Shown here: piece by piece, positions 3,204 through 30,878 of the stretch | Numbering within the stretch: position 1 is the first letter of the stretch | How the letters are laid out: every line of letters begins with the position of its first letter | NCBI GenBank assembly: GCA_009937625.1 | Contig: JAACFA010000002.1 | Span: 1-34,806, forward strand | DNA length: 34,806 nt | Reading direction: 5' to 3' | Origin: Gammaproteobacteria bacterium | GTDB taxonomy: Bacteria; Pseudomonadota; Gammaproteobacteria; GCA-001735895 | Position numbers and translations under genes: made by a program | The notes under the pieces: model-generated | Told to the model about the DNA's origin: nothing | What the model saw: the letters and a program-made list of their open reading frames with translations, nothing else | The model's database searches: none

Positions 3204-3363
3204 GCGCTGGTAGGTTCTAGCTCGTCGCTAGCTACATTCCGGAGGTGAATTTGAACGGAGTAACTCGTTGTGATAGGTAGGTTGGCGCATAGAGCAGTCG
3301 CAGGCATATCGATTACAATCCCTGGTGATTCCTTTTGTCGCTTATTAACCTGGTGATCATCCG

Positions 3364-4842: not shown

Positions 4843-5098
4843 TCCGATTATATGGTTAGATACCAACCCGGACCTATTCCCGATACATTTTGCCTGAAAG
4901 AACAACTCGCATACGAAAATTGTTCTATTGCAATTCTTAAGTCCTTGCAAGAGATCAGTTTTTGTTGCCCTAAATCATATGGCTACAAAAGCATATGCCC
5001 TATTATGAAAACATGATGCCATCGAGCTGGACATCTTGCTCTTGCAAGTCGATTGATATTAAGGGTCGCAACGCTGAATCTGATCTATTGGGCAGGCT

Positions 5099-6202: not shown

Positions 6203-6373
6203 TATGTAACCATCAGCAGGTTAGTAAATCCGCTATCATAACGAATTTACCGCAGCTGACTACTTTTACCGCGAAATTTAAGCCGTATGCCGGGGGCTTC
6301 AGTTCTCGACATGAAGTCCATTGCCGGGTCTGATTGAAAAACATCGAGAGTAGGCATGGCTTAACGGGATTAT

Positions 6374-7851: not shown

Positions 7852-8148
7852 TGAAAATACTCTTGCTGCTGTCCTGCCAGCAGGACTAATAAGGGCTCAA
7901 ACCTCTGTCAGCCGTTACATTTGTTACGCTCAGCAGCACTATAATGAATGGAGATTTAAGTTTTAGCGATTTATGATACTGCGCATTTAAAAATACTCAA
8001 ACTGCTTCCATGACATATGCTCAGTACACTTTCCAATCGTCGCCATTCCGACCGTTCTTTTCGTCCAGCACCCAGGTGGCCACGGTTTTTAATGGTGATC
8101 CCCGGCGAAACGCGCTGCGTGAAAAAGATTGCGTGATTTAGCCTGGGC

Positions 8149-14337: not shown

Positions 14338-16217
14338 TGCGCACCCCCGGCCGTTGCGGCCTGCCCCTCGGTTGCGGGCGGAACCTGCCTGGTACCGCTC
14401 AGGTTCGCGATCCAGAAGATGAACAGCACGAAGATCAGAAACAACAGCGTAATGCCGGTGACCATGTTACCGACCGTGGCCAGTTCGGGAATGAAGTTAT
14501 CCGGCGAATTGTCCTTCATGACCGCGTAGACATGCCAATGAGTGCGCACCGACGAACGGATGTAACCCATTAGCGCCATCAACCAGGTGAACGCTATCGG
14601 CAGCGCAAACAGCGCGTATTGCGAACGGTTGGAAACCTTACCCCAGTATACCGGCAACTTTTTCGCCCCCTTGAACATCAGCGTGTCGATGACAACACCG
14701 GACACGATAACGACGACGGTCGACATGACCTGCAACACGCTCGAACCGACCTTGTAGACGGTGTTGGTGAAGTAACCGTAGTAAACGCCGGCGAAGACGA
14801 TGTTGGCACAGGCGACGACGTATATCGCGATCATCAGCGCGTTGCCCCAGTCCTTCCAGGCGACCGTGATTTCCCTGTCCGCGCGGCGGTAAAGCTGGAA
14901 CGACAGGAAGGTCATCACCAGCATCAGGAAAACAGCGATATTCTTCGCCGGCATGATGCCGAGCGGGCCCAGCACGGCGTGATGGCCACCGCCGAGCCGG
15001 GCGAGTTCGCTGCCGGTGTAGATCACGTTGTGCGGCGTGACCCAGACGAGGAAACCGAGGATTAGTACCAGCGCGATATACTTGACCAGCCAGCGGTAAC
15101 GCTCACCGCCCTCGGTGCGGGCCATGCCGTTCCACAGGTAATAATTGGCTGCCAGCAGGATGGTGCAGATCAGCACGGCCTGGATCACGAACAGCCACGC
15201 CAGGATGCCGCCCATCGCCAGGATCCCCATTTGCTGCGAGTAGGCGTAGACTTCCGCCATCAGCCAGTAACCGGCGAACGGCAACGGTAAAAAGGCGAGG
15301 ATGGCGACAAAGTTCGAGGTATAACCCATCCAGTCGTAATGCGCCTTTTCCGCCGCGGTTTTCGCGGCGAGAAATTTGAACGCGGCGTAGGCGCCGACGA
15401 CGGCGCCGCCAAAGGCGATGTTGGCGAGGAAGCGATGCAGGTTGAGCGGGTTCCATAACGGGCCCTTCATGATTTCCCACAGGTTGCCGGTTATCGCGCC
15501 GGTGGCTGGATCGATGCCCGATGGCGCCATCATGAACGTCGACCAGGAGTTCGCGACCACCAGCAATGTCGTGCCGACGCCATTCAGCAACAGCCCCAGC
15601 GTCAGGTGCAGCCACTTGCGATTGCCGTAACGCAACGCGTCCCAGCCATAATAATAAATGTACAGCAGCATGCTTTCGAGGAAGAACAGTAGTGCGTAGA
15701 TCAATACCTGCGAGCCAAAGGCACGCATCATGTAGGACATGAAATCGGGATAAAGCAGGAATAGCGACAACGCCAGCGTGCCGCCGAACAGCGCAGTGAT
15801 CGCGTAGGCCGTCAGGCTCACTTTCATGAATTCGTGCGCCATGTCGTCGTAACGGTCGTCCCTGGTGTAGAAACCGATAAACTCGATCACCAGCACGAAT
15901 ATCGGCACGGCCAGCACCAGCGCGCCGAAGAACAGGTGCATTTGGGCGAACACCCAGACGATGCCACGGCTGCTGGTGCCGATATCGGGATAATCTCCAC
16001 GATTGAGTCGCGGCGCGGGTTCCAGTTCGGCTTCGCTAGCCGCCTCATCGCCCCCCATCATGGCGGTGCCGGGTTCCATGCCGTGACTGTCGGCAGCGAT
16101 CGGTGGTGAGTGGCCAACAGCATAAAGCGCGATCAACAAAATCACCAGCAGTGGCAGCAGCCTGCGACAGGCCGACATCGCCGACCCGCAGAACTCGTTT
16201 TTACACTGGCTCGACAT
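14334..16217 (-). CDS. Cytochrome bd-like oxidase subunit I (CydA superfamily, no CydB, no long Q-loop)
   Basis: 627 residues with many membrane helices. CydA-like features: H94 in VFAQMHLFFGAL (equivalent to the N-terminal heme ligand), the FFLES stretch with E181 followed by a YGWDALRYGN segment, VANSW, and H261 in NPLNLHRFLAN, matching the heme b558 histidine region. The GDESG-containing quinol loop of CydA is not recognisable (replaced by PFAGYWLMAEVY), and no CydB gene is nearby. The two flanking cytochromes c suggest electrons come from cytochrome c rather than quinol, as proposed for the OR-C/OR-N branches of the bd superfamily. An N-terminal extension with a hydrophobic segment (20-36) precedes the core. 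The substrate (oxygen, NO or other) is not decidable here. Confidence 0.82.
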   Translation of the reverse strand: MSSQCKNEFCGSAMSACRRLLPLLVILLIALYAVGHSPPIAADSHGMEPGTAMMGGDEAASEAELEPAPRLNRGDYPDIGTSSRGIVWVFAQMHLFFGALVLAVPIFVLVIEFIGFYTRDDRYDDMAHEFMKVSLTAYAITALFGGTLALSLFLLYPDFMSYMMRAFGSQVLIYALLFFLESMLLYIYYYGWDALRYGNRKWLHLTLGLLLNGVGTTLLVVANSWSTFMMAPSGIDPATGAITGNLWEIMKGPLWNPLNLHRFLANIAFGGAVVGAYAAFKFLAAKTAAEKAHYDWMGYTSNFVAILAFLPLPFAGYWLMAEVYAYSQQMGILAMGGILAWLFVIQAVLICTILLAANYYLWNGMARTEGGERYRWLVKYIALVLILGFLVWVTPHNVIYTGSELARLGGGHHAVLGPLGIMPAKNIAVFLMLVMTFLSFQLYRRADREITVAWKDWGNALMIAIYVVACANIVFAGVYYGYFTNTVYKVGSSVLQVMSTVVVIVSGVVIDTLMFKGAKKLPVYWGKVSNRSQYALFALPIAFTWLMALMGYIRSSVRTHWHVYAVMKDNSPDNFIPELATVGNMVTGITLLFLIFVLFIFWIANLSGTRQVPPATEGQAATAGGAQ

Positions 16218-16870: not shown

Positions 16871-18139
16871 TTAGCAGCCGCGAACGCGTCGCGCCGGCTT
16901 CGGCGCCAGGTGCAGTTTTACTGACTGCGACGTTTCACCGCGCCGACGTGCAAGAATCTCGCGGTAGAGGTTTCGCGTCTCGGGCATCGGGTCGACGCCG
17001 AATTCACGGCCAAGCACCCTGTGGCATTGTCGATACTGGGCGACTGCCGAATCTATCCTGCCGAGATGAACCAGGTAGCGCATCAAAGAGCAATGCAGGC
17101 TTTCACGACAGGGATCCTGCACCAGACCCTTGCGGCAAACCTGTACCGCCTCCAGATATTCGTCGCGTTGCGCATGACATTCGGCCTTGCGCGTCAGCAT
17201 GTCCAAATAGATTTCACCGAGGCGTTCGCGCTCCTCGGCGCACCAGTCTGCATAGGTATCCTGCTCGAGGTAATCGCCACGGTACAGAAACAACGCCTCG
17301 TCGAAACAGCGCAGCGCCTCGTCGCAGCGGTCCTTACCTTGCAGTAAACGTCCTTCGGCAGCCAGTTTTTCGAAGTGCTCGGCGTCGACCCAGACCGCGT
17401 CGCGCCTGAGCAGGTAGGCGCTGCCGACGGTTCGCACCGCGTCTTCACCGGCCCCGCTGGCGCGCAATTGCGTGCGCAGGTAGTACATGGTCACCTTGAG
17501 CCGGCCCCAGCCGCGCTCCTCGTCGACGTCTGGCCAGAGGTAATCGAGAATGCGTTCGCGGTGCACCGGGCGATCGAGGTTGGTAACGAGAAATTTCAGC
17601 AGAGTTACCGCCTGTCGGCGTTTCCATTTGTCGATGGCGATGCTTCTTTCGTTGGCGACGAGGCCAAATTTCCCGAGCATGAAAACCTGCAGCAACCCGT
17701 TGCGTGCCAACTGCGCCTGCCCCGCTTCGCGGTCGCGCAGGAAAACAACCGCGACCACCGAGCCCTTTGGTGGCCCCTGGTGCTGTTCGGGCATGACCAG
17801 CGATGAATAACTCACAGAAATCCAGTTGCCGTTCTTGCAGCGGACGCGGCAATTCGGTATCGCGCCGGGGCAGCAATTGCGGAAACACTGAAACAGGTCG
17901 CAATTTGGCCGGCACATCGGTTCACCACCCGGCAGCACCGCCTGCAGGATTTCCTCGCAGCGCAGGCCAATGACTTCGTCCGCTGCGTAACCGAGCAGAT
18001 TTTCGGCCGCCTGGTTCCAGCCCACGATTTGATGGTAGTCGTCGATGGCAAACGCGGGGTCCGCGGCCCCGGTCACGAGCTGCGAAATAACGATGGTGTC
18101 CGTTTCGATGACTGTGTTTTCAGGTGGCTCTGTGGACAT
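16871..18139 (-). CDS. PAS domain / winged-helix / BTAD (SARP-like) transcriptional regulator
   Basis: 422 residues. Residues about 18-135 form a PAS domain (DPAFAIDDYHQIVGWNQAAE) with an unusual cysteine cluster: C61, C76, C80, C85, C89, C90, C97, C101. Residues about 148-245 look like an OmpR-type winged helix (LQVFMLGKFGL, WPDVDEERGWGRLKVTMYYL). Residues 255-400 match the bacterial transcriptional activator domain with TPR-like helices (CDEALRCFDEALFLYRGDYL). It should bind DNA as a SARP-like activator, with the PAS cysteines a possible redox or metal sensor (inference). The ATG at 18139 follows GGGAGG by eight bases. It is the last gene of the outer-membrane cytochrome operon, 27 bp after the porin, and may act on the GTGACA direct repeats. 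There is no receiver domain. Confidence 0.85.
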   Translation of the reverse strand: MSTEPPENTVIETDTIVISQLVTGAADPAFAIDDYHQIVGWNQAAENLLGYAADEVIGLRCEEILQAVLPGGEPMCRPNCDLFQCFRNCCPGAIPNCRVRCKNGNWISVSYSSLVMPEQHQGPPKGSVVAVVFLRDREAGQAQLARNGLLQVFMLGKFGLVANERSIAIDKWKRRQAVTLLKFLVTNLDRPVHRERILDYLWPDVDEERGWGRLKVTMYYLRTQLRASGAGEDAVRTVGSAYLLRRDAVWVDAEHFEKLAAEGRLLQGKDRCDEALRCFDEALFLYRGDYLEQDTYADWCAEERERLGEIYLDMLTRKAECHAQRDEYLEAVQVCRKGLVQDPCRESLHCSLMRYLVHLGRIDSAVAQYRQCHRVLGREFGVDPMPETRNLYREILARRRGETSQSVKLHLAPKPARRVRGC

Positions 18140-18166: not shown

Positions 18167-19357
18167 TCAGAAGAACAGATGCAGCTCGGCAAAGTAAGAA
18201 GAGGTATTCAGGGACGGATCCTGTGGAATACCCTCGTTGTCGCGCGCGCCGACGCGAACCTGCACAAATTGATACAGGAAGGGTTCGTATACGATGCTGT
18301 AACGCTCGTTGGCGTTATCGTAGATATCTTCATCCGGATCGTGGTACTCGTACGAAAATTTCAGATTATGACCGCGCGAAATCAACAGGTTGAATTCGAG
18401 GATGCTAACGTATTGCTCAAGGTCATCACCCGTTGGGTCTTCCACATCGATAATGTCGGCTTCCAAAAGTACCCCGAGGCGACCGAATTGCGCGCCACCG
18501 TTAATGCCGTAAATTATCACCTCGACATCTTCGGGAGTCTTGTTACGGTTGTAGGAAGCGCCCACCCGGAAACGCTTGTCCACGTAGGCAACCGAGGCGG
18601 TTACCTGCTTGCTCAGATTGGTATCGCCAGACCCGCCGGTGCCGTTGGTGGTCGCGATGTGCATTGCCCAGGGCCCCGGCTCGTAGCCGAACTCGATACC
18701 CTCGTCCGTGGCGCCGTAGGTGAAGCCGGTCACCGCGCGGATAAATGCCGTGTCGTCCTGCAGCCGCAGCCCGTAAGGCAGGAAGAATTTCCCGAACTTA
18801 AAGTAATAGGGTTCTCCCCCAAGCTCTCCCTTCAGCAAGCCGAGTGTTTCATCCGCATCGCCACCTTGAACGGTCTGGTAGAAAATGACGCGTTCGGGGA
18901 TCAGATCGACTTCGAGGTAAATATTGTACTTATCCCTGCTGAAGCCATCGTCGTCGCCTTCGTTGGGGGTATGGACGTTTTCGTAGGACGCACGGAAGTC
19001 GCCGCCGATTGCGATGTAGTCGTTCAAACGGCCGGAAAAGAAACTACTGTTCGAGTCGCTCTTCATCGGATTTTCTTCGGTGTCCTCGTCCTCCTCTGCT
19101 TGCGGCAGGTATTCGCGCCAGTCCATGAAATTCGCCGAAAGACGAGTCTGCACGTAAATGTTGGCGAAGTCGGTGCGCTTGCCGCCACCGGTCATGTTGA
19201 CGTGGCACTTGGAGCACTTGTAGCCCTCCTGGATTGCGAGGTAAGGTTCGGCGCGTATGTCCGACTGTCCCCACAGCAGGGTTACGAGCAGGCAAAGCGC
19301 CGCCACCTTGCACGATTGCGACAGGCGGGAGAAGGCTGTGATTCTTGTTATTTTCAT
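18167..19357 (-). CDS. Outer-membrane porin-like beta-barrel with N-terminal heme c motif
   Basis: 396 residues. A signal peptide (about 1-36) leads to a mature start near EPYLAIQEGY, then a single CSKCH heme-binding site (C48, C51, H52) followed by NMTGGGKRTDF. The rest (about 95-396) shows alternating beta-strand patterns (YYFKFGKFFLPYGLRL, HNLKFSYEYHD) and ends in an aromatic C-terminus (AELHLFF), typical of outer-membrane barrels. A heme in or near the barrel would let electrons or small redox substrates cross the outer membrane. It stands 16 bp after the diheme lipoprotein gene and 27 bp before the regulator gene. Whether heme is attached, and what the barrel passes, are unknown. Confidence 0.83.
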   Translation of the reverse strand: MKITRITAFSRLSQSCKVAALCLLVTLLWGQSDIRAEPYLAIQEGYKCSKCHVNMTGGGKRTDFANIYVQTRLSANFMDWREYLPQAEEDEDTEENPMKSDSNSSFFSGRLNDYIAIGGDFRASYENVHTPNEGDDDGFSRDKYNIYLEVDLIPERVIFYQTVQGGDADETLGLLKGELGGEPYYFKFGKFFLPYGLRLQDDTAFIRAVTGFTYGATDEGIEFGYEPGPWAMHIATTNGTGGSGDTNLSKQVTASVAYVDKRFRVGASYNRNKTPEDVEVIIYGINGGAQFGRLGVLLEADIIDVEDPTGDDLEQYVSILEFNLLISRGHNLKFSYEYHDPDEDIYDNANERYSIVYEPFLYQFVQVRVGARDNEGIPQDPSLNTSSYFAELHLFF

Positions 19358-19373
19358 GTTTCGATACCTGCGC

Positions 19374-20309
19374 TTAGTTGGGATCGGACGGCCGCAATGG
19401 CGCGCCGTCCAGAATCCAGTTGCGGATGACGTCCAGTTGATTTTGGGTCAGCGGCAGGTATCCGTCCGGCGGCATGCGCCGCCCGGGGTCGCTTGTGCTG
19501 ACGCGGTTCCAGAGCGTGCTCGAGTCGGGATCGAGCGGGTTCACCGTGCGGCCATCGACGATGCCGTAGTAATTGTCCGCCTCGAGCACCAGTCCGCGCG
19601 GGGGGCATTCGATTTCCGCGACGCAGGCGGGGTTCGACGGCTGCACGCTGTGGCAGGTCGAGCACACCCGCAACGAGGTTTCCCAGACCTGCATCCAGGA
19701 GCCCTCGGGATAGTCGAAACTGCTTTTGACCGCGGCAGTTTCGGAAGTCGATCCGACGGCACCGCTGCGCGCCGCCGGTTTTGGCACAGCGCATCCGGGC
19801 GTCCCATCGGAAATCCAGTCCTTTACATTTTTTATCGTATCCGCCGGCAACGGCGGATTGTTCAGCGGCATTTGACCAGCAACGATCGCTTCGCCGCTGG
19901 GCCCAGCGCCTTCCAGTTTCCAGACGAGATAACTCTGCTCCGGCTTGCCGGGATCGATTTCCATCAGCGTATCGATTTCGCCACTGGGTCGGTTTACGTT
20001 TTCGCAGCTAGCTGTCTTCGAACTCCAGTTGACACCCAACGGGGGTGTCGCGCCGGTATGACAAAGCGAACAGATTCCGCCAAAAACATTGTCCTGCACC
20101 CAATCAAGCGTAGCGTTCGGGTTGCCGCTGGCACCGACCGATCCGCCGCCATCAGACTGATTGTCGCCGCTCCCGCTGAGCAGCAGGTTGCCTTCTTCGT
20201 CGAGCCCCTGTCCTTCGCCCGCCCCGCATGCCGAAAGCGTTACGATCACCGACACCGTGATAAGCAGCTTGACGGCGTTTGAAAAAACGAATAACGGCTG
20301 GTAAATCAT
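19374..20309 (-). CDS. Diheme cytochrome c lipoprotein
   Basis: 311 residues. The N-terminal hydrophobic stretch ends in a lipobox (TLSAC, C28), so it is a lipoprotein, probably in the outer membrane. A Gly/Ser/Asp-rich spacer follows, then heme motifs CSLCH (C80-H84) and CSTCH (C216-H220). Both modules are closely similar to the first and last modules of the tetraheme lipoprotein encoded at 21283-23409, including VFGG..CS.CH, RPSGEI.TL and the C-terminal WILDGAP. Its ATG overlaps the stop of the preceding diheme gene (ATGA). It likely relays electrons between periplasm and outer-membrane partners. Confidence 0.88.
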   Translation of the reverse strand: MIYQPLFVFSNAVKLLITVSVIVTLSACGAGEGQGLDEEGNLLLSGSGDNQSDGGGSVGASGNPNATLDWVQDNVFGGICSLCHTGATPPLGVNWSSKTASCENVNRPSGEIDTLMEIDPGKPEQSYLVWKLEGAGPSGEAIVAGQMPLNNPPLPADTIKNVKDWISDGTPGCAVPKPAARSGAVGSTSETAAVKSSFDYPEGSWMQVWETSLRVCSTCHSVQPSNPACVAEIECPPRGLVLEADNYYGIVDGRTVNPLDPDSSTLWNRVSTSDPGRRMPPDGYLPLTQNQLDVIRNWILDGAPLRPSDPN

Positions 20310-21208
20310 TCCCTGGACTCCGGTGGTTTAATGGGCGGATGCCGGACCTGGTTCGGGTTTTCCTTGAACAGCCAGTAAATCCAGTTCTGCTCGACCTCGA
20401 GCGACTGCACGTAGTCAACCAGCTGCCAGCGCTCTTCCTCGGAGAGTTCATCGAAGGCCGGCATCGGCGTGCCGTTCAACGCGCTGGTGAATACGCGGTA
20501 AATATCCTGGTCGCGCTTACCGTTCTTGTAATACGGCAGCGACAGGTTGGCGGGGCGGATCGGCACGTCCCAGTCGTCGATCAGTTCGTCTGCCTGCGGG
20601 CCATCGCCCTTGCCACCGTCGCCGTGGCACTTAACGCAATCCTGGTCGATGAAAATCTTGCGTCCCGCGGCAATCGATGACGGGCTCGGCTCGAACGGGC
20701 GTTCCTCGGGAATCTCGATGATGTCCTCGTCCAGTGGCAGCGAGTCCGGGTCATCGAAATAGGGATAAAAAGTCTTGATGTACTGCACCACGGCGCCAAT
20801 ATCGGTCTCGGACAGAACATCCTTCCAGCGCGGCATCTCGGTACCCGGAACGCCCTCTCGCACGGTACGCTCGATATCCGAGTCCAGCGGCAGCGCGCCG
20901 CTGACGGTGGTGCGAAACTTGTACGCGCCGCGGCGAAAATTGCGCGGCGCCGGATCGAAGCCGTGCGCAGCCGGGCCCTTGCCGTCGCCCTGTATGCCGT
21001 GGCAGGGCGCGCAGGCGCGCAGGTAGATTTTCCGCCCGCGCTCGAGTTCGGCACGGGACGTCAGCCGGTCCACTTCGATTCTCAGAGTTTCGACGATTTC
21101 CTCGACCGACTCGTCCTGCCCGCTGCCGGACAGGGGCAGGAGCGACAGTACCCCAAGTAGCAGAGTGCAACCTGTCAAAACCGTCGTATTTTTCTTCTTC
21201 GGTTTCAC
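20306..21208 (-). CDS. Periplasmic diheme cytochrome c
   Basis: 300 residues starting at GTG 21208, preceded by GGAGGAGG five bases upstream. Signal-like N-terminus (residues about 8-30). Two cytochrome c domains: CAPCH at C66-H70 and CVKCH at C191-H195. Each is followed by GDGKGP-like or GDGGKGDG loops and a candidate axial methionine (GTEMPRW; GTPMPAF). The architecture resembles tandem mono-heme cytochromes of nitrite/thiosulfate and similar respiratory clusters. The stop overlaps the start of the lipoprotein gene. It likely shuttles electrons in the periplasm. Confidence 0.88.
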   Translation of the reverse strand: MKPKKKNTTVLTGCTLLLGVLSLLPLSGSGQDESVEEIVETLRIEVDRLTSRAELERGRKIYLRACAPCHGIQGDGKGPAAHGFDPAPRNFRRGAYKFRTTVSGALPLDSDIERTVREGVPGTEMPRWKDVLSETDIGAVVQYIKTFYPYFDDPDSLPLDEDIIEIPEERPFEPSPSSIAAGRKIFIDQDCVKCHGDGGKGDGPQADELIDDWDVPIRPANLSLPYYKNGKRDQDIYRVFTSALNGTPMPAFDELSEEERWQLVDYVQSLEVEQNWIYWLFKENPNQVRHPPIKPPESRE

Positions 21209-21282
21209 TTAATCCTCCTCCGGCGGCGCGCGGCGGTACGGGACCCCGACGCAGCGCCACGCTGGTTGTACTTATGTTTCGA

Positions 21283-23409
21283 TCACGGACACACTTCCCC
21301 GTCAGGACAAAACGGCGCGCCGTCAAGTATCCAGCCACTGATAATGCCGAGCTGGGTCGAGTTCAACGGGGGCATCCCGAATGGCATGCGCTTGTCCGGA
21401 TCCGGATCGGTGACCCGCTCCCACAGCTTGCTGCCGTCGAGGTCGAACGGCTCGACCTCGTCACCGTCGACTACACCACTGTAATTGTCGGCGGTCAGCA
21501 CCACGTCCTTCGGCGGGCAATCGAATTCGACGCCACAACTCGGGCTCGCTGGCGTCGGGCTATGGCAGAAGGTGCAGATTTGCAGCGACTCGGTCCAGAC
21601 GTACATCCAGGAACCGACCGGGAAACCAGGATCCGACGAACCGCCCGAATCGGCATCGGACGGGTCGCCGAGGGGCGCACCGTCGGCAACCCACTGGGTA
21701 AACACATCGATCAATGCCTGATCGAGCGGGATGCCGGTCGCCGGCATGCGTACCGTGCCGGGCGCGATCGGTTCGCCGCTCGGGCCCTGGCCGTTAATCT
21801 TCCAGATTACGTAGCTCAGGTCCGGGTTACCCGGATTCACTTCGAGCATATCGGTAATCTCGGTGCTCATGTAGCCGTTGGTAACGATCGTATCGTACTG
21901 GTCGACTTCCCATGAGAGGCCGGCCATCGGTGCGGTGCCACCGTGGCAGCCGACGCAAAAAGGTTCCAGAATATTGGCCTGGATGCCATACCAGGTCGGG
22001 ACGATCGAGCCCGGATCGGTGCCGCCACCGCCGGGATCGCCCCCGCCTCCGGGATCGCCGCCACCGCCGGGATCGCCACCCGTACCGGGCGCACCGGCAG
22101 CAATCCACGCAGAGATCCGGTCGATGTCGGCCTGATCGAGATACGGCGGCCCGGATGCCGGCATGCGGACGGTGCCCGCCGCGGTCGGCTCGCCGTTCGG
22201 ACCCTGGCCATTGAGCTTCCAGATTAGATAGCTCAGGTCCGGGTTACCCGGATTGATTTCGAGCAGGTCGGTGATCTGGGTGCTCATGTAGCCGTTGGTA
22301 ACGATCGTATCGTACTGGTCGGCCTCCCACGAGAGACCAGCCATCGGGAACGCTCCACCGTGACAAAATACGCAACGTGGCTGCAGGATATCGGCCTGGA
22401 TTGTCGCCCAGGTGTCGGGGCCGCTGCCACCGGGATCTCCGCCGCCGCCCGGATCGCCACCGCTACCCGGATCCCCGCCACCGGTGGTGCCGCAACCTGG
22501 TGTTCCGGCCGCGATCCAGTCGCGCATGTTCTGGATCGTGGCAAGCGGTAACGCGGGATTGAATTGTGGCATTTGATCACCACTGATGGCTTCGCCGTTG
22601 GGTCCGGCGCCCTCGACCTTCCAGATGACGTAACTTGCGTCCGGGTTGCCGGATTCGATTTCGTTGAGCGTGCTGATTTCACCGCTGGGTCGACCAACGT
22701 TGGCGCAGGTCGCGGCTTCGCTGCTCCAGTCGACACCCATCGGCGCGGCCGTGCCGACGTGGCACTGGCTGCACACGCCGCCGAACACGTTCGCCTGCAG
22801 CCAGGCAAGCGTCGCATTAGAGGTTCCGCCCGGATCGCCACTGCCACCCGGATCGCCACCGCCGCCGGGAATCGCTTTCAGCGCAAAAATACTGAAACCG
22901 TTGATGTTGGCAGTAACGAGTCGATTAGTCGTATCGACCGCGCCGAGCAGCGGGATCCAGTTGACATCGTCGGTCTCGTGGATGCGCAGGTTCGCTGCGG
23001 TGAGGCCGGCAACCATCTCGTCGCTGTAACTGATGCCGAGCACGGCCGGCTGGTTGAAGACCAGGCCGTCGGGGCCGAATTCGAAAACCGCAGCGGAAAC
23101 AAGATTGGTGCCAGCCGGAAAAGTCTGCGCGTGCTCGATCGTGATCGTGGTATCGGCGTCTAGCGCCCCGGCGGGTATGTCGAGCGTTACCGTAATGCTT
23201 TCGATCGGCGACCGATAAACGATGCTGCCGCCGGCCGGGCCGATCGGAAATTCCTGTAGCGTTTCGATCGATGGCGGCGATTCCGGATTCGTGCCCGAAT
23301 CCGTGTCGCAGCCGTTTGACAACAGTAGTAACGCCCCGAGTATAATCGAGCCGATAATGTGTCCGAAAATGCCTGCAGCTTGCTTCCCACTGCTATCGGA
23401 CAGGGACAT
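21283..23409 (-). CDS. Tetraheme modular lipoprotein with ZU5 domain and Gly-Asp-Pro linkers
   Basis: 708 residues from ATG 23409, chosen because GGAGG stands seven bases upstream; ATG 23457, with AGAGG upstream, is an alternative adding 16 residues. A lipobox (LLSNGC) places the lipidated cysteine at residue 34. Residues about 50-175 look like a ZU5 domain (PIGPAGGSI, DIPAGALD, ISYSD). Four heme modules follow with CSQCH, CVFCH, CVGCH and CTFCH at about 213, 346, 485 and 612. They are separated by GGDPGG repeats at about 183-196, 310-330 and 442-467. Modules two and three are near-identical tandem copies. It is the first gene of the operon and likely a surface or outer-membrane electron carrier. 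Confidence 0.87.
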   Translation of the reverse strand: MSLSDSSGKQAAGIFGHIIGSIILGALLLLSNGCDTDSGTNPESPPSIETLQEFPIGPAGGSIVYRSPIESITVTLDIPAGALDADTTITIEHAQTFPAGTNLVSAAVFEFGPDGLVFNQPAVLGISYSDEMVAGLTAANLRIHETDDVNWIPLLGAVDTTNRLVTANINGFSIFALKAIPGGGGDPGGSGDPGGTSNATLAWLQANVFGGVCSQCHVGTAAPMGVDWSSEAATCANVGRPSGEISTLNEIESGNPDASYVIWKVEGAGPNGEAISGDQMPQFNPALPLATIQNMRDWIAAGTPGCGTTGGGDPGSGGDPGGGGDPGGSGPDTWATIQADILQPRCVFCHGGAFPMAGLSWEADQYDTIVTNGYMSTQITDLLEINPGNPDLSYLIWKLNGQGPNGEPTAAGTVRMPASGPPYLDQADIDRISAWIAAGAPGTGGDPGGGGDPGGGGDPGGGGTDPGSIVPTWYGIQANILEPFCVGCHGGTAPMAGLSWEVDQYDTIVTNGYMSTEITDMLEVNPGNPDLSYVIWKINGQGPSGEPIAPGTVRMPATGIPLDQALIDVFTQWVADGAPLGDPSDADSGGSSDPGFPVGSWMYVWTESLQICTFCHSPTPASPSCGVEFDCPPKDVVLTADNYSGVVDGDEVEPFDLDGSKLWERVTDPDPDKRMPFGMPPLNSTQLGIISGWILDGAPFCPDGEVCP

Positions 23410-23522
23410 GATCGTACCTCCGACGACCGTATTGTTGTTGATATTTTTCACGGTCATGTTACCTCTTTGCAGCGGATCTGCGGCCCCCAACCTGGAGAGT
23501 TAATGCTCCACCGCGACCCGAC

Positions 23523-23742: not shown

Positions 23743-24087
23743 TTATTGACATTGTTCTTCCAGATATACGCGCAGGCGCTGCAAATATTCCCCATCCCGT
23801 TCGTCAACCTGCGCCGGCATGAGGTACCTCAACTTCGCGGCAACGATAAACTCGCGCCGTGACTCGTCGCCCGCCGGCCGTTCCTCGCTGATAACCGCCG
23901 CCAGGCGATGCAGCGTTGCTTCGGGCTCCGCGCAATAGCGTGGCAGTGAAACCTCAGCCGCATACCAGCGGCTTGCCAGCGAAACCAGTATCAACAGTAC
24001 GAGTACGGCCGTAAGCAACCGGAACGGGCGAAAGCTGACGGCCGATGGAATGGCGCAAGACCTGGTCATGGCCATGCGCCGGCTCAT
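23743..24087 (-). CDS. 114-residue membrane-anchored protein of unknown function
   Basis: The ATG at 24087 overlaps the stop of the flavoprotein gene (ATGA), placing it as the last gene of the PCP_red operon. One membrane segment, about 22-41 (FRLLTAVLVLLILVSLASRW), is followed by a soluble, probably periplasmic, helical domain rich in Arg/Glu with two cysteines (YCAEPEATL and the C-terminal EEQCQ). I do not recognise the family. The translational coupling argues for a role with the heme-related enzymes upstream. It is separated from the next operon by a promoter-bearing gap. Confidence 0.7.
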   Translation of the reverse strand: MSRRMAMTRSCAIPSAVSFRPFRLLTAVLVLLILVSLASRWYAAEVSLPRYCAEPEATLHRLAAVISEERPAGDESRREFIVAAKLRYLMPAQVDERDGEYLQRLRVYLEEQCQ

Positions 24088-25508
24088 CGCGCTGCCGCCA
24101 TCGCGGGCACAAGCTCGAAGGCGGTCTCGAGATCCGCCGTACCCGACATCTGCTTGTGCCGGTGCAGAATCCTGGCAGTCAGCCTGTTGGCGTAAAGAAT
24201 TCGATCGCGTATCGAAACACCGCCGATGTAATTGGCCCCCAGGTGTACACCGGGCAGGAATTCGAGGCGCTCGCCGATTGCGGCCAGACGCCGTGAATAA
24301 TCATCGTGATAAAGCGGCAACGCGCGCCGATGTCTCGCGACATGGAGCATTTCCGGATCGCCCCTGGCACCGAGTAATTCGCGTAACATCGGCATGACTG
24401 CGTGCAGGCAACGGTTCTCGCAACAATTCGCTGCCGTCGGGTTGCGCGCCCCGCCGAGATAACTGGTCAACAGAACGCGATCGGTCGGTGCGCGGTCGGA
24501 AAACTGGCTGCTGATCCAGAGACAGCCATTGGGCAGGTAGCCACCGTTCGCGGGTAACAAAAATCCACTGCCGTCGAGGGGATGATTAATTCGCGCGCGT
24601 TCGAACCCGGTGTGCACCACGCTGACCGGCGCGTAGTCGATCGTCTTGAGCAGGCGTGAAATTTCCGGATCCAGGATTTGCAACAGGGATGCCGCGGTAT
24701 AGGCCGGTGTGCAAAGAACCAATTGCCGGCAGTTCAGGCTGGTGGTGACACCGTCATTTTCCGCGCGCACATTCCAGCCTTTCTTGACGCGCCTCAGTTC
24801 AACCACCGCCATACCGGTGCGAACGGCGAATCCGCGGCGCTCGGCCAGTGACTCGATCAGCGTTTGCATTCCACCGGCAAACGAAAAGACCTCGGGCCTT
24901 GCCGCGGTGCCCCGGCGTTTCAGTCTGCGCAGTAGCGCACCGAGCGCCAGGCTGCCGTAACGCTGTTCGAGCGCGGTTAGTCTGGGCATGGTCGACCAGG
25001 CTTCGGCGCGTTCGACATCGCTCGCCAGCGGCCCTGACAGATAGGGTTCGAAAACCTTACTTACGAATTCCTGACCGAGCCGGCGGGTCACGAAGTCGGC
25101 AACCGATTCGTGCGGATCGGTCCCGCGGATTATCAAGGGTTCGGCCAGCAATCGCAGCTTGGCGCGTGTACTCAGCAACGGCGTGTTGAACAAGCTACCG
25201 ATACTGGCCGGCGCAGGCTGCAGCCGTCCTGCATGCAGGATATAACGCTGGTTATTCGATGAACGTCCCCGTTTGCTCGCGGTAAGGCTGGCGGAATCAA
25301 TGAAACCGTCGAGTTCACGCTGAAAATTCATCACCATCGATGCGGCGTTGTCGAGGCGATATCCCTGCTTGCTTATCGTCTTGATCTTGCCGCCGACCCG
25401 GCCGTCGCGCTCCCAGACTTCGACCGCGAGCCCGGTCTCGGCGAGGTAATGCGCCAGCACAAGTCCCGAAACGCCACCGCCGACAACGAGTGCGTCCAGC
25501 TCGCTCAT
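24084..25508 (-). CDS. Protoporphyrinogen oxidase-like FAD amine oxidase-family protein
   Basis: 474 residues from ATG 25508, preceded by GGAGG four bases upstream and overlapping the radical SAM stop (ATGA). 71 further upstream codons are open but shadow the previous gene. The N-terminus is a dinucleotide-binding motif (DALVVGGGVSGLVLAHYLAE, then VWERDGRVGGKIKT). LSGPLASDVERAEAWSTMPRLT and FAGGMQTLIESLAERRG are typical of HemY/CgoX-type oxidases, and the C-terminal GANYIGGVSIRDRI closes the FAD site. The family oxidises protoporphyrinogen IX or coproporphyrinogen III. Its partnership with a radical SAM/PCP_red protein suggests a dedicated, perhaps non-standard, tetrapyrrole substrate. Confidence 0.85.
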   Translation of the reverse strand: MSELDALVVGGGVSGLVLAHYLAETGLAVEVWERDGRVGGKIKTISKQGYRLDNAASMVMNFQRELDGFIDSASLTASKRGRSSNNQRYILHAGRLQPAPASIGSLFNTPLLSTRAKLRLLAEPLIIRGTDPHESVADFVTRRLGQEFVSKVFEPYLSGPLASDVERAEAWSTMPRLTALEQRYGSLALGALLRRLKRRGTAARPEVFSFAGGMQTLIESLAERRGFAVRTGMAVVELRRVKKGWNVRAENDGVTTSLNCRQLVLCTPAYTAASLLQILDPEISRLLKTIDYAPVSVVHTGFERARINHPLDGSGFLLPANGGYLPNGCLWISSQFSDRAPTDRVLLTSYLGGARNPTAANCCENRCLHAVMPMLRELLGARGDPEMLHVARHRRALPLYHDDYSRRLAAIGERLEFLPGVHLGANYIGGVSIRDRILYANRLTARILHRHKQMSGTADLETAFELVPAMAAAR

Positions 25509-26821
25509 CGGTCCTCCGGTGCGCAGTCGACGGGTTGCTTGCGGCCGGCGAAGCGTTCCGCCGGGGATGCGCCGAAACGCGCCGCGGCCAGGTCCGCCAG
25601 GTGCTGGCAGGTGACTCGATCGGCGCCGAGGCCCGTGACATAGGCTTCGGTACGTTTTCTGACCATCTGGCGCAGAAATACCGGCACCCGTGACAGGCGT
25701 AACTCGGCGTCTTGGCTCCATCGCGGCGCTTTTTCGGCAGCGTCCGCCAGCGGCTGAAGCGGGTCACCACCCCGGGGCTCGTAGGCACAGAGGTCGTCGT
25801 CGGCCATTAAACTACCCCGACTGGAAAACGCCCTGGCGCGACACCCTCCGCACAGCAGGCGGTACTCGCATACCCCGCATTTACCGCTAAGATCGGGCGC
25901 GCGTAATTGTGCAAATGTCGGTGCCTCTGCCCAAAGTTCGCTAAGCGGAGTTTCGCGGATATTACCGACTTCATGCTGCACGTATGGGCAGGGGGTTACG
26001 GCCCCGCGGTGATTGACTCGCGCATAATGGATACCCGCGATGCAGCCATCGCTTTCGCGCCCGCTGATACGATTCACCGGGGCCTCTGGTCGCAACTGGT
26101 GGGCGACCCGCTTGAAATGGGGAGCGCAACGGGGGCGGACGATCAGGTCGGGGTATCGGGCCTGCGCTTCGACCAGTTCTTGCAGGAAGCGTTCGTAGCG
26201 ATCGGGCTTGAGCATGGCCAGCGACCGCGCCCGTCCGATGCAGACCATGAAAAACACGTTGAGTGCGCGTGCACCGCAAGTGCGGGCAAACTCGATCATC
26301 GCCGGCAATTCATGCGCATTGTCGTCGGTCACCGAGAAATGCAATTGAAAGTCGATTCCGTAGCGTCGACAGCGCTCTATACCGGCCAGTGTTTTTACCC
26401 AGGCTCCCGACTGACCCCGAAACCGATCGTGGTTCCCGGGATCGAGCGAATCGAGACTGATGCCGAAACCCAGCAGGCCGGCCTGCCCCAGCGCCGCAAT
26501 TCGCCGCTCGGTCAGCATCATCGCATTGGTACCGATGACGATCGGTAAATTCAGCGACGAACCGTGGGCGACGATTTCCTCCAGGTCCCTGCGCAGCAGC
26601 GGCTCGCCGCCGGTGAGTACGATCATAGTGCCGTGACCGAGAGCGGCGACGTCGTCGAGCAGCGCCTTGACCCGGGCCGTTTCCATTTCGTCGTCGTCGC
26701 CGTCTCGCAGGGTTTGCGCATCGAGATAACAGTGCGCGCAGGCGAGATTGCAGCGGCGCGTCAAATTGATCGCGAGCAGCGACAGGTCGGGCGCCGGCAC
26801 GGTTCCCGAATCAGAGATCAT
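25505..26821 (-). CDS. Radical SAM/SPASM protein (NirJ/AhbD-like) with C-terminal PCP_red-like domain
   Basis: 438 residues from ATG 26821; this start overlaps the end of the universal stress protein gene by 11 bp. The radical SAM cluster motif is C24-x3-C28-x2-C31 (RRCNLACAHC), followed by GGEPLLRRD. SPASM-type auxiliary cysteines include C315, C318, C324, C327 and C345. The overall pattern resembles the heme-modifying enzymes NirJ, AhbC and AhbD, or related peptide-modifying enzymes. Residues about 366-417 (PRWSQDAELRLSRVPVFLRQ and on) match the PCP_red domain found at the C-terminus of protochlorophyllide reductase subunit B. Likely role: radical chemistry on a tetrapyrrole. The domain fusion is unusual and is the link to the neighbouring five-repeat protein. 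Confidence 0.85.
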   Translation of the reverse strand: MISDSGTVPAPDLSLLAINLTRRCNLACAHCYLDAQTLRDGDDDEMETARVKALLDDVAALGHGTMIVLTGGEPLLRRDLEEIVAHGSSLNLPIVIGTNAMMLTERRIAALGQAGLLGFGISLDSLDPGNHDRFRGQSGAWVKTLAGIERCRRYGIDFQLHFSVTDDNAHELPAMIEFARTCGARALNVFFMVCIGRARSLAMLKPDRYERFLQELVEAQARYPDLIVRPRCAPHFKRVAHQLRPEAPVNRISGRESDGCIAGIHYARVNHRGAVTPCPYVQHEVGNIRETPLSELWAEAPTFAQLRAPDLSGKCGVCEYRLLCGGCRARAFSSRGSLMADDDLCAYEPRGGDPLQPLADAAEKAPRWSQDAELRLSRVPVFLRQMVRKRTEAYVTGLGADRVTCQHLADLAAARFGASPAERFAGRKQPVDCAPEDR

Positions 26822-28991
26822 GTCGCGGATCGCTCGGATCGAGGTGAAAGATGCCGCGCGACTGCCATTCGCGCTTGATCGAGCGCAGCGTGCGTTCATC
26901 GATTTCCTCGAGGCCCTCGCGCCTCGCCCAGGATTCGATTTCCCTGATCAGCATGCCGCGTATCGATTCCGGTGCGCGGTCGATGCGCACGCGCGCCATC
27001 GTCGACCAGCGCATTCCGGTCGTCACGTTGGCCGAGCTTTCGCTGAAAGTATTCAACACCCCCTGGAGAAAATCGAGGTCTATCCGCTGCAGGTCGTTTT
27101 GCCGTGCCAGGGTCGTTACCGCGCGATAGGTCAGGCGCCGGCAGTAACCGGCCGGGACCTCCTCGAGCCGCGCGCGAGCCTCCGCGGTCCAGGGTACTTC
27201 GGTTGAATCTTCCGCGGCCTCGGGCGTGGGAACGGTTTTGCCCGAAAACGGGCACTTGCTCGCCGTTTCGGGCGCCCCGCCCTCATTTTCGCGGTTGAGT
27301 TCGCTCGCCATCGCCGTGCGTGCGCCCTCGAGCCCCTCCTCGACCAGTTCGAGGGTCACGGTCTTGGTACCGCGTTGCCGCGCGAGCGATTCGATACGCT
27401 GCTGGCAGGAGTCGCGCATGAATCCTTCGGGAACCCGCGCCATGCGCGCGAGCGCCTCGGTTTCCCAGTAAAACAACTTGTCAGCGGCAGCGCTAGCAGG
27501 CGCACTCTGTGGTACGCGCCGCTTTTTCGCCGACTCGACAAAGCTGATCACGTGCGCCGACGAAACTTCGTCGGAACTGTCACCCCGCGCCTTTTTCTCG
27601 GCGCGCAAGCGTATATTGTCGCGTACCGCGAGATCCTCGATAGCATTCAGTTCCGCTCGGGCCGCCTCGCTCCACGCGATCCCGGCCATATCGGCATCGC
27701 GCCCGATTTCGCCCGCATCGTAGGCGGCGACGATTTCCGCCATCGATTGCTCGGCACGGCCGGGCATCAGGCTGGCGGTTGCTTCTTCGACGATACGCTC
27801 GGTGACGACCGTATGCCCACGCTCCTGGGCATAACGCAATATGGCGATACGCGCCATGTTCTGTACAAACGAAGGAGCACGCTCGAGCCGGGCCTCGGCT
27901 TCGTTGGTCCAGGATACGTTGACCTCGGCCAGGCGCTCGACCGGGGGGCGATGTTGCCGCTGGCAGAGCCATACCGCGCAGGGCGCCATCCGCAGCAAAT
28001 TCTCCGCGTTGCCGCCGATGTCGAGCGCGTCGTCGGCATGAATACCGAGCTTGCCGATAACCAGCAGCGACGGATCGAGCTCGCGCAGGTAACGCAGTAT
28101 CGCGTCGTATGGTTTGCCGTCGAGTAAATCGGTTACGATCGGCACGCCGAAGTCGTCGGCAATTCGTTTTGCGATCTGCAGGTGCCCTTCATAAATTTTC
28201 GCCAGCCCCGAATCGATGATCTCCTCGTGCAGTTTTTCCTGCTCCTGGAAGCGGAATACCTTGCCGGCTTCTTCCGACAGGACACCGGCGATGCGGTTGA
28301 ATGCGACATAGTGGTAATAAGGATCGAAGGCCGACACGACGTGTAGCGGAACCTGCCATTCCTGCGCCAGTTTCAGCGCTGTCAGCAAGCCGCCATAAGC
28401 CTGCGTCGAGCCGTCGATGGCGACGACGAGCGGGCCGTCGGTAATCGAGCGCTGCGGCGACCTGATGACGAGGGTGTCGATCTCCGACCGGCGCACCACT
28501 CGCTCACAGACGGTACCAATGCAGGAATCGGCCACCGCACCGAGTCCGAGCGCGCCCAGCACCAGTAGATCGTAATTGCCGCTATTGGCCTCGGCGCTCA
28601 TTTGCCGGTAATTCTTGCCTTCGAGAGCACGCCGGACGAAGCGCATACCGGCCGCCCGGCAGGCGCGGTCGACCTGATCCATGTACGAGTCGGCAATGAT
28701 GGAAAGACCGCGCGTGATCAGGTCATCGTGCACGTCGCGTTGCCGTTCGAGTTCCTGTTCCTCGCGAAATTGCTCGGGCAAGCCACCTTCCATCTGGCGG
28801 AAGCGCAGATCGTGCATTTTTGCGGCATAAACGTGGGCCGCGGTTATCCGCGAACCGAACAGGCGCGCCAGCGTGATTGCGTCCTCGGTCCCGCGATTGG
28901 CGTGGTCGGACGAGTCTACCGCGAGCAGAATCTCCCGGTACCGCGGCAGCGGTCTGGTTTCGGTATCGGCTGAATTGAGGCTCGGTTGCAT
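26811..28991 (-). CDS. Tandem universal stress domains fused to five PCP_red-like repeats
   Basis: 726 residues from ATG 28991; an upstream TTG at 29051 would add 20. Two USP domains lie at about 17-177 and 185-345. Both keep the ATP-binding pattern G-x2-G-x9-G (GALGLGAVADSCIGT; GKLGIHADDALDIGG). Five repeats follow at about 358-408, 437-485, 506-556, 599-650 and 660-712. They share the pattern W-x3-A-x2-R-(L/I/M)-x3-P, then hydrophobic/Arg positions, then A-x3-G, which matches PCP_red; repeat 2 is the most divergent. Between repeats 3 and 4 is KCPFSGK, a Cys-Pro pair resembling a heme regulatory motif. No signal peptide, so cytoplasmic. A tetrapyrrole carrier or sensor is inferred, not shown. 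Confidence 0.82.
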   Translation of the reverse strand: MQPSLNSADTETRPLPRYREILLAVDSSDHANRGTEDAITLARLFGSRITAAHVYAAKMHDLRFRQMEGGLPEQFREEQELERQRDVHDDLITRGLSIIADSYMDQVDRACRAAGMRFVRRALEGKNYRQMSAEANSGNYDLLVLGALGLGAVADSCIGTVCERVVRRSEIDTLVIRSPQRSITDGPLVVAIDGSTQAYGGLLTALKLAQEWQVPLHVVSAFDPYYHYVAFNRIAGVLSEEAGKVFRFQEQEKLHEEIIDSGLAKIYEGHLQIAKRIADDFGVPIVTDLLDGKPYDAILRYLRELDPSLLVIGKLGIHADDALDIGGNAENLLRMAPCAVWLCQRQHRPPVERLAEVNVSWTNEAEARLERAPSFVQNMARIAILRYAQERGHTVVTERIVEEATASLMPGRAEQSMAEIVAAYDAGEIGRDADMAGIAWSEAARAELNAIEDLAVRDNIRLRAEKKARGDSSDEVSSAHVISFVESAKKRRVPQSAPASAAADKLFYWETEALARMARVPEGFMRDSCQQRIESLARQRGTKTVTLELVEEGLEGARTAMASELNRENEGGAPETASKCPFSGKTVPTPEAAEDSTEVPWTAEARARLEEVPAGYCRRLTYRAVTTLARQNDLQRIDLDFLQGVLNTFSESSANVTTGMRWSTMARVRIDRAPESIRGMLIREIESWARREGLEEIDERTLRSIKREWQSRGIFHLDPSDPRHDL

Positions 28992-29016
28992 GAATTTATC
29001 CGGGATCTCGATGCAA

Positions 29017-29145
29017 TCAGGAAGCAAGCCAAAAACCGACGAGACAGACAATTACGACCAGATTCACCGCCGCGCCGGCGAGCACGAAGTAGTCGAATCC
29101 GCTCAGATCCGTGAAAGAATTACCCCTGAATTCAAGTAACGACAT
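29017..29145 (-). CDS. 42-residue single-pass membrane peptide, first gene of the PCP_red operon
   Basis: ATG 29145, TGA at 29017-29019, then 25 bp to the universal stress/PCP_red gene. The sequence begins MSLLEFRGNSFTDLSGFDYF and ends in a hydrophobic helix (about residues 19-40: YFVLAGAAVNLVVIVCLVGF). I know no family. The short length, clean helix, operon position and a GTGACA direct repeat 75-91 bp upstream support a real peptide that may tether the cytoplasmic partner to the membrane. No strong ribosome-binding site was seen, so confidence is moderate. Confidence 0.6.
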   Translation of the reverse strand: MSLLEFRGNSFTDLSGFDYFVLAGAAVNLVVIVCLVGFWLAS

Positions 29146-29301: not shown

Positions 29302-30495
29302 ATGAATAACTCAAGCGAAACAGCTACCGATATTTATAAATTGGCGCTTCAGTCGGCGCCGTCCGGTTTCCTTGTGGTAGATGTCGGCGGAACCATCCAG
29401 TACGCAAATCAAACCCTGGCCGACATGTTCGGCCATGCCCTCGAGGATCTGTTGGGCGAATCTATCGAAATCCTGTTACCCGACCCATTCGTCGCCTCGC
29501 ACCGGGAACATGTCAGAAACTATGCGAAAAACCCGGCGCCGCGGGCAATGGGCTCCGGGCGGGACCTCGAAGGGATCAGCAAGGACAGAAGAAGATTTCC
29601 GGTCGAAGTGGGCTTGCGGCCCGTGCATACCGAGAATGGGCCTGTCGTGGTCGCAACAATTATCGATATCAGCAAGCGCAAGGCCATGGAGGATCGACTG
29701 CGCCAGCACGAAGAAGAGCTCGAGAGACTCGTGGCCGAGCGAACGCAGGAACTCGAACGAGCCCAGCAGGACAAGGAGCGCATGCTCGATCAACTGATTC
29801 AGGCCGAGAAAATGGCAACGATCGGCACACTGGTCAGCGGCATCGGCCACGAAATCAACAACCCCCTTTACGTGTTGCAGGCGACTGCCGAGGCTCTATG
29901 CGCAGAGTCCGATCTGAATCAATGCCACGCATTCGGCGGCAGCATTTTGCGGCAAACAGCACGTATCGCTGAAACCGTAAAAAATCTGTCACGTTACGCC
30001 CAGCCTGGATCGAAGCAAGAACTGGAGTGCGTGAATTTCGACGACGTCATTGCCGATGCTCTGGATCTGGCGCGTCAGTCAGTGCGGGACGATCAGGTCG
30101 AGTTTTTGGTCAACATCGAGCCCACGCCCGGGTTTCTGGCGAGGTTCGAGGAAATCGTACAAGTGGCGTTTAACCTGCTTCGCAACGCGATTCAGGCGAT
30201 TCCGGACAAGGGCAGAATCTATATAAGCTCGGCGCGACAAGGGGACTGGGTTTCATTACAGATTCGCGATAACGGCAAAGGCATCCCCGAAGAAATTTTA
30301 AGCCGGATTTTCGATCCGTTTTTTACCACTAAAGGGCCCGACGAAGGCGAGGGTCTGGGGCTTTATATCGTGCACCAGATTGTCACTCGCTGCGGCGGCA
30401 GCATCGATGCCGAAAACGCGGACAGCGGGGGTGCCCGCTTCGAAATCCGCTTCCCCGTGGCCGGGCAAGGTTCAAACCAGGAGGAGAGTTCATGA
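29302..30495 (+). CDS. PAS-domain sensor histidine kinase
   Basis: 397 residues with no membrane segment, so cytoplasmic. A PAS domain (about 10-128: [20 protein letters not shown], then [13 protein letters not shown]) is followed by a coiled coil (128-170, Glu/Arg-rich). The phospho-acceptor region is [15 protein letters not shown] with H183. The HATPase has N-box [11 protein letters not shown]1 [12 protein letters not shown]-box FDPFFTTK and G2 GLGLYIV. The family resembles NtrB/DctB-type kinases. It stands divergent from the PCP_red operon and its stop overlaps the start of the response regulator gene (ATGA), so they form a pair. The signal is unknown; a PAS in this context could bind heme or FAD, but no ligand residue is assigned. 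Confidence 0.9.
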
Positions 30496-30878
30496 AAAAC
30501 CACGTATTGATACTGGATGACGAAGCGGAGGTGCGGGACGCTATTCAACTTCAACTCAGAGATACCCGTTACGAGATTCTCTTAGCCGAAAACTTCGAGC
30601 AGGCGATGACCTTGCTGCAGGGCAACGCGGTGACGATCGATGTCATAATCTGCGACGTTCGCATGCCGGGCGTCGATGGTGTCGAGGCAGTTGCCGCTTT
30701 TCAGCGAGAATACCCGACCACGCCCGTGATTGTATTAACCGGTTTTCCCGACGTCGATCTCGCCGTTGATTTCATGAAACAGCAGGACGTCAAGGATTAC
30801 CTGACCAAACCGGTGGAAAAGGAAAAACTGATCGCCGCCGTCGACAAAGCCGTGCAGGAACGCAAGGTATTCGCGTAA
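30492..30878 (+). CDS. Stand-alone response regulator receiver
   Basis: 128 residues, a receiver domain only. The acidic pocket is D9/D10, the phospho-acceptor D55 (VIICDVRMPG), with T83 (VIVLTGF) and K106 (YLTKPVEK). There is no DNA-binding output domain, so it should act through protein contact or phosphotransfer. A good ribosome site (GGAGGAG) lies inside the end of the kinase gene. The obvious output partner is not encoded with it; the PAS/SARP regulator 12 kb away lacks a receiver. Confidence 0.92.
   Translation: MKNHVLILDDEAEVRDAIQLQLRDTRYEILLAENFEQAMTLLQGNAVTIDVIICDVRMPGVDGVEAVAAFQREYPTTPVIVLTGFPDVDLAVDFMKQQDVKDYLTKPVEKEKLIAAVDKAVQERKVFA

Follow-up and report, generated by a model that had tools for sequence, protein, structure and literature searches.

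Why would a gammaproteobacterium keep six copies of PCP_red, a domain found at the C-terminus of BchB/ChlB in the dark-operative protochlorophyllide reductase (DPOR), within a single operon, and what would they serve there? The question is raised by a stretch of 34,806 nucleotides (contig JAACFA010000002.1 of assembly GCA_009937625.1, hereafter the window), whose region 23743-29145 carries on the reverse strand a cassette of four genes, encoding a fusion of two universal stress protein (USP) domains with five PCP_red repeats, a radical SAM/SPASM protein ending in a sixth, a flavoprotein resembling protoporphyrinogen oxidase (PPO) and a small membrane protein. This cassette is real and conserved, is linked to a bd-like oxidase whose gene shares its strand, and is undescribed in the literature searched, where no paper on it was found and the name PCP_red led to unrelated papers only. 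Its four genes may form a dedicated cofactor-maturation system for that oxidase, a reading whose truth we judge evenly poised, and tetrapyrrole handling is the best single explanation of the cassette that we can infer.

A first-pass annotation, made from the sequence alone, had claimed this distribution of the six PCP_red copies, and it is borne out by the profile searches. Pfam PCP_red (PF08369, cut-off 32.5 bits) matches the USP fusion in five stretches (E 3.7e-41, 139.3 bits) and the radical SAM protein once, at the C-terminus (E 2.7e-11, 43.8 bits), and a custom PCP_red profile returns the same five copies plus one. Numbered along the longest open reading frame (ORF) of the fusion, 746 residues, and all on the reverse strand, the copies are residues 379-429 (27765-27917; Pfam, own profile and a genome search), 458-508 (27528-27680; the weakest, 40.5 bits with the own profile), and then 527-578 (27318-27473), 619-670 (27042-27197) and 680-730 (26862-27014), these last three from the own profile and a genome search; scored singly, copies 4 and 5 reach 30.4 and 27.4 bits against the Pfam cut-off. 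The copy of the radical SAM protein (25574-25726, reverse strand, residues 392-442 of a 464-residue ORF), supported by Pfam, the own profile and a structure prediction, forms three helices in the predicted model (396-402, 407-423 and 431-442). A chance match was considered and is ruled out by the Pfam scores together with the same architecture in relatives. When the 3.78-Mb genome was searched with PCP_red, this operon alone was found (five of the six copies reaching E 1e-3), and therefore no bchB-type gene is present in the assembly, which is 93 percent complete, bchN and bchL not having been searched; a remnant of phototrophy was likewise rejected, as the genome has no BchB-type match.

The four reading frames are packed tightly. 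The USP fusion (26811-28991, reverse strand, 726 residues; Pfam and an alignment with nine relatives) has its likely ATG at 28991, its longest ORF (26811-29051) opening at a TTG at 29051, and its stop overlaps the likely ATG of the radical SAM gene at 26821. That gene (25505-26821, longest ORF 25505-26899; Pfam, NCBIfam, alignment and model) meets the flavoprotein gene (24084-25508, longest ORF 24084-25721; Pfam, NCBIfam and the junction itself) in an ATGA overlap, with the flavoprotein ATG at 25508, and a further ATGA overlap at 24087 leads into the gene of the small protein (23743-24087), which has one transmembrane-like segment, no Pfam family and relatives in many cassette loci. All four genes lie on the reverse strand. 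The junctions, read directly, agree with the overlapping starts and stops that had been noted at first; of the two small membrane proteins announced for 23743-29145, only this one was found. A promoter scan returned no site (shuffled mean 2.4), that is, none above shuffles, and the terminator-like sites (12, against 5.8 in shuffles) are not used as evidence.

Is such an arrangement peculiar to one genome? A scan of genome contigs, made with the alignment of the radical SAM protein, gave 217 relatives, of which the best 80 loci were kept. Gamma-, Beta- and Alphaproteobacteria are their source, as metagenome-assembled genomes and a small number of named genera, and many bear the titles of sulfur-oxidising genera; L079 and L089 belong to a single assembly, and a few loci come from genomes that also supply rows of the alignments. 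The USP fusion aligns over its full length with nine relatives and the radical SAM protein with eight. Among the 75 loci with at least 1.2 kb upstream, 72 carry the USP gene (exceptions L077, L096 and L100), and the flavoprotein gene is found in 67 of the 73 with at least 1.3 kb downstream (exceptions L086, L087, L088, L090, L103 and L123). PCP_red occurs two to five times in 68 USP proteins and one, three or four times in 78 radical SAM proteins, and in no other ORF of at least 150 residues across the 80 loci. In many loci (e.g., L085, 10010-12049) the radical SAM protein takes a long form, which bears three PCP_red domains and an extra C-terminal stretch, and in many a HEAT-repeat protein (HEAT_2, HEAT_PBS; L061, 12461-14887, and relatives) stands between cassette and oxidase. 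A plasmid-borne cassette was rejected: among 72,556 plasmid records nothing matches the USP fusion, and all matches to the radical SAM protein are below 60 percent identity, the best among those listed being a TIGR04053-type protein of a haloarchaeon.

The partner oxidase is encoded at 14334-16217, on the cassette strand and some 7.5 kb past the lower boundary of the region. Counting as an oxidase any tblastn match above 60 bits (some are cut by the locus edge, and L079 has a short piece only), 38 of the 80 cassette loci include it, as do 21 of the 29 that extend for 9 kb or more in both directions. Of the 42 genomes whose cassette locus lacks it, 36 carry the main type elsewhere, some as contig-edge pieces, so that the cassette is not widely found without an oxidase; one of the remaining six has a paralogue only (G367), one a 40-residue contig-end piece only (G343), and four have none. 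The reverse comparison gives the same picture. Within a class sample of 369 genomes, 16 have the oxidase at E<=1e-40 and 14 of them the cassette, no intact cassette being identified in the other 353; the two oxidase genomes without it are G467 and G562. PCP_red matches occur in 25 genomes of this sample: the 14 with a cassette, six BchB-type by score pattern, three with short stand-alone frames, G726, where two stretches read held no cassette gene, and G011. Six of the 14 cassettes were checked by neighbourhood (the own genome, G000, and G031, G493, G498, G582 and G704) and the other eight assigned from several PCP_red matches in long frames. Across the samples, G116 (a 62-residue frame) and G267 (a 182-residue frame at a contig end) were left out of the cassette counts, and so was G050, which has a USP protein with one PCP_red match below the cut-off and no oxidase. 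A family sample of 41 genomes has nine with the oxidase (G025 as a fragment), eight of them with the cassette and G010 without, and no intact cassette in the other 32, and in a phylum sample of 299 the four genomes with a strong oxidase match are also the four that have the cassette; another fifteen matches, all weak (E 1e-11 to 7e-4), are left uncounted. The samples joined, the cassette is present in 23 of 26 oxidase genomes; Fisher tests (1.5e-23 for the class sample, also 3.1e-9 and 9.4e-8) ignore kinship, and the class cases span many families.

Individual genomes tell the same story. G077 has the radical SAM and USP genes on one contig and the flavoprotein gene beside the oxidase and cytochromes on another, and in G011, without an oxidase match, the locus (L069, 8475-10102) is a decayed remnant of the cassette, from which only the radical SAM C-terminus and pieces of the flavoprotein, in two frames, are left; both cases speak for function. 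The one relative of the same genus with BchB-kind matches (G021) has no oxidase match, which also counts against a remnant of phototrophy. The tie between cassette and oxidase is thus well supported and near-obligate, and an operon-level system, no chance assembly, whose tie to a bd-like oxidase had at first been offered as a possibility, now has much stronger support than the sequence by itself could give.

How might four such proteins serve an oxidase? The radical SAM/SPASM enzyme would work on an iron tetrapyrrole at one of its side chains, oxidation of the ring or a side chain would fall to the HemY-like flavoprotein, the USP-PCP_red protein would hold the product through a Cys-Pro site and its repeats, the PCP_red modules common to the fusion and the radical SAM protein would bring the enzymes together, and the product would be inserted into the oxidase or its cytochrome partners. 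Substrate, order of steps, hand-over and recipient are all conjectural here, and the scheme is consistent with a radical SAM protein whose best profiles are NirJ2 and AhbD, with a HemY-like flavoprotein and with the Cys-Pro motif. The latter (C600-P601 of the 746-residue ORF, codons at 27249-27254 on the reverse strand) lies in KCPFSG, in the linker between PCP_red copies 3 and 4. Cys-Pro is present in 64 of 68 USP fusions (shuffled sequences: mean 15.1, maximum 28), with F, V, I, L or M as the next residue in 50 of them (shuffled mean 4.3). It lies in linkers that follow repeat 3, where repeat 1 ends, or at the C-terminus; in the radical SAM proteins, the Cys-Pro found in 78 of 78 is the SPASM cysteine, with a hydrophobic residue after it in only three. 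In loops of mammalian proteins, Cys-Pro motifs often serve as transient heme sites, according to the available part of one paper (PMC10377097). The motif of the USP fusion has the form of a heme-regulatory motif, which is a lead and no proof, the relatives being interdependent.

Several observations weigh against this maturation scheme. The radical SAM protein scores below the cut-off of each family that it resembles (NirJ TIGR04051, 166.1 of 515.45 bits; NirJ2 TIGR04055, 311.8 of 500; AhbD TIGR04545, 276.6 of 500), and in a fold search the top ranks go to SPASM enzymes that modify peptides (PqqE, SuiB and SkfB), NirJ or AhbD structures possibly not existing. The genome itself also carries heme d1 genes. 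Four of the 42 genomes without an oxidase on the cassette locus (G361, G364, G368 and G371) show no oxidase at all, each being incomplete or of unstated completeness, and three of the 26 oxidase genomes (G010, G467 and G562) have no cassette, so that the oxidase may not always need it. Co-occurrence, moreover, cannot separate maturation from joint regulation. Finally, in the accessible part of a DPOR paper (PMC4157233), Asp274, Arg48 and Gly409-Leu410 sit at the substrate, and all of them are outside the C-terminal PCP_red stretch, which maps to positions 457-510 of 512 in the BchB-type profile of NCBIfam.

This last point weakens the premise, from which the first interpretation had started, that PCP_red lies close to the DPOR substrate, and as a consequence PCP_red may be a docking or scaffold module. 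The cassette resembles DPOR in the domain itself, whose first copy in the USP fusion matches the tail of the BchB profile and which has solved relatives (2kru and 2l09), and differs from it in lacking a nitrogenase-like domain and in repeating PCP_red. A docking or regulatory role is the main rival: the PCP_red copies would serve as docking modules, the USP fusion would sense energy or redox state, and the cassette would assemble or control the oxidase chain with no new tetrapyrrole, an alternative that we regard as possible, if doubtful. It would account for PCP_red being common to two proteins with a varying copy number, as expected for a scaffold. Pfam Usp (PF00582) matches the fusion in two stretches (E 2.1e-31, 109.8 bits, cut-off 24), and G166, G169 and G179 of USP domain 1, invariant in the alignment with nine relatives, presumably fit the USP ATP-binding motif, which would suit a sensor, as would the two-component regulators that flank the cassette, a PAS histidine kinase (29302-30495, forward strand), divergent from it, and a response regulator (30492-30878, forward strand), both assigned by Pfam. 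Docking nevertheless leaves unexplained why an enzyme of the NirJ2/AhbD group is paired with a PPO-like flavoprotein, and why the Cys-Pro motif is kept.

What, then, does the radical SAM protein modify? Pfam recognises Radical_SAM (E 5.9e-25) and SPASM (E 4.3e-8), the predicted model is confident (pLDDT 84.1, pTM 0.84), and the cysteines of the CX3CX2C motif (50, 54 and 57) and seven C-terminal ones (286, 304, 341, 344, 350, 353 and 371) are invariant in 48 sequences. The SPASM domain, with PqqE and SuiB as top fold matches, would suit a peptide-maturation system acting on the small membrane protein or on a short unlisted peptide; however, many cassette loci, alphaproteobacterial ones among them, have no gene for the small protein, and the NCBIfam profiles favour NirJ2 (311.8 bits) and AhbD (276.6) over PqqE (119.5) by nearly 200 bits, which makes this the least probable of the alternatives. 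NirJ and AhbD remove or decarboxylate propionate side chains, an activity that is at most putative for this protein. The NirJ/AhbD likeness claimed at first holds for the radical SAM and SPASM-type cysteines and for the top profiles, and falls short of the family cut-offs; unlike NirJ, NirJ2 and AhbD, the protein bears one, three or four C-terminal PCP_red domains across its relatives and stands with a PPO-like flavoprotein and a USP fusion.

Could it simply be the NirJ of this organism, serving the heme d1 of cytochrome cd1? The genome has two NirS/NirN-like genes, a NirF-like gene, a NirE-type methyltransferase gene and siroheme decarboxylase genes, its heme d1/cytochrome cd1 genes lying on contigs C143 (L205) and C306 (L206); no separate nirJ was found in the assembly, where, at E<=1e-10, the radical SAM protein has no further relative but MoaA. 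Yet C143 ends about 80 bases past the last decarboxylase gene, and the place next after that gene is, in what we take to be the usual order, that of nirJ, which would fall past the contig end. With a NirJ score so far under its cut-off and a cassette that follows the oxidase, we consider this identity very unlikely, if slightly less so than peptide maturation.

The flavoprotein raises a related question, namely whether the cassette is a second route to ordinary heme b, like the coproporphyrin-dependent HemY/AhbD pathways, feeding many cytochromes. Pfam assigns it to Amino_oxidase (E 1.1e-40), and it passes TIGR00562, the protoporphyrinogen oxidase profile of NCBIfam (227 bits, cut-off 97.85), as its first description had foreseen; its substrate would accordingly be only putatively that of the HemY-type protoporphyrinogen/coproporphyrinogen oxidases. 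The pairing of a HemY-like with an AhbD-like protein favours such a route, and ahbD occurs beside hemY, hemH or hemQ according to the available text of a review (PMC10548856). But the genome has a HemJ-type and a ferrochelatase gene outside the cassette, which is therefore extra, ordinary heme having no need of the radical SAM/flavoprotein pair; none of the window ORFs scanned is ferrochelatase-like, the score of the radical SAM protein is far under the AhbD cut-off, and the cassette is linked to one oxidase and not to cytochromes generally. Unlike HemY-type enzymes, the flavoprotein is an extra copy beside a HemJ-type gene elsewhere and is tied to an oxidase. A heme b route is thus improbable, less remote nonetheless than either the NirJ or the peptide alternative.

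Returning to cofactor maturation, what is known of the oxidase that would receive the product? Subunit I, with about 14 transmembrane-like segments, matches Pfam Cyt_bd_oxida_I (E 3.7e-22, 78.9 bits, cut-off 26.2) and the CydA profile from the PDB, and all ten PDB fold matches at E<=0.001 are bd subunit I chains, the predicted model being of medium confidence (pLDDT 75.0, pTM 0.77) and the Foldseek matches global only (root-mean-square deviation at least 16 A). H94 and H261, invariant in 28 sequences, align with the heme ligands H19 and H186 (E. coli numbering) of cytochrome bd subunit I. The E99 column holds an invariant tyrosine (Tyr174) in the same 28 sequences, and the C-terminal half, which would hold the counterparts of the ligands M393 and E445, does not align by sequence. 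The heme d ligand is H19 or E99 in the available part of one source (PMC8509429). Like the OR-C/OR-N families, putatively cytochrome c-linked in the description of another source seen in part (PMC10839748), this oxidase has the CydA fold, adjacent c-type cytochrome genes and no CydB gene seen in the window, and what sets it apart is the Tyr at the E99 position; related OR-N enzymes of Nitrospinota and Nitrospirales are putative cytochrome c-oxidising enzymes, uncharacterised in the published papers as far as these were available. The more specific proposal, in which the radical SAM protein and the flavoprotein make an undescribed, modified tetrapyrrole that the USP-PCP_red protein carries and the oxidase uses, is tentative, and we hold it to be rather less probable than maturation in general. 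The initial interpretation in terms of tetrapyrrole handling is, in sum, partly supported, the underlying observation being confirmed save for the second membrane protein.

Between and beyond cassette and oxidase, and all on the same strand, cytochromes dominate: a c-type cytochrome with four CXXCH and a PSCyt1 domain (21283-23490), with long Gly/Asp/Pro-rich linkers between its heme domains, and two-CXXCH c-type cytochromes at 20306-21208 and, with PSCyt1, at 19374-20309, are followed by a protein with a weak porin-like profile match (18167-19357) and a PAS and BTAD (SARP-like) regulator (16871-18139; Pfam). Past the oxidase gene come a two-CXXCH c-type cytochrome overlapping it (13516-14337), a three-CXXCH cytochrome with an ethylbenzene-dehydrogenase-type heme domain (11084-13519), and a protein with a carboxypeptidase-regulatory-like domain (10275-11006; Pfam), near the cassette in many relatives; Pfam and direct reading support both of these cytochromes and the three at 19374-23490. 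A polysaccharide cluster (2472-8922) holds a sulfotransferase, glycosyltransferases, a UDP-galactopyranose mutase and an ABC transporter. In relatives, a beta-propeller and cupredoxin protein with NosZ-like repeats stands beside the oxidase cluster (L072, 12855-14633; L185, 13949-15709), and a second, longer bd-like paralogue (about 715-790 residues) occurs in G010 (L184) and several other genomes of the cassette scan, lying in G010 near a molybdopterin oxidoreductase and Rieske_3 domain in one protein, which is presumably of the arsenite-oxidase type.

Heme-copper oxidases have dedicated heme-modifying enzymes, the CtaA/CtaB pair of heme A synthesis, and no such pathway for bd-type oxidases was found in the literature searched; the cassette is comparable to that pair in standing beside one oxidase family, and differs in that its enzymes are unrelated. 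The modified-tetrapyrrole proposal, if true, would give a bd-type oxidase a dedicated cofactor pathway for the first time. Across Alpha-, Beta- and Gammaproteobacteria the cassette follows a single branch of bd-like oxidases, whereby the question of their cofactor becomes testable, PCP_red gains a life outside chlorophyll synthesis, and universal stress proteins are linked to what may be a heme-type motif.

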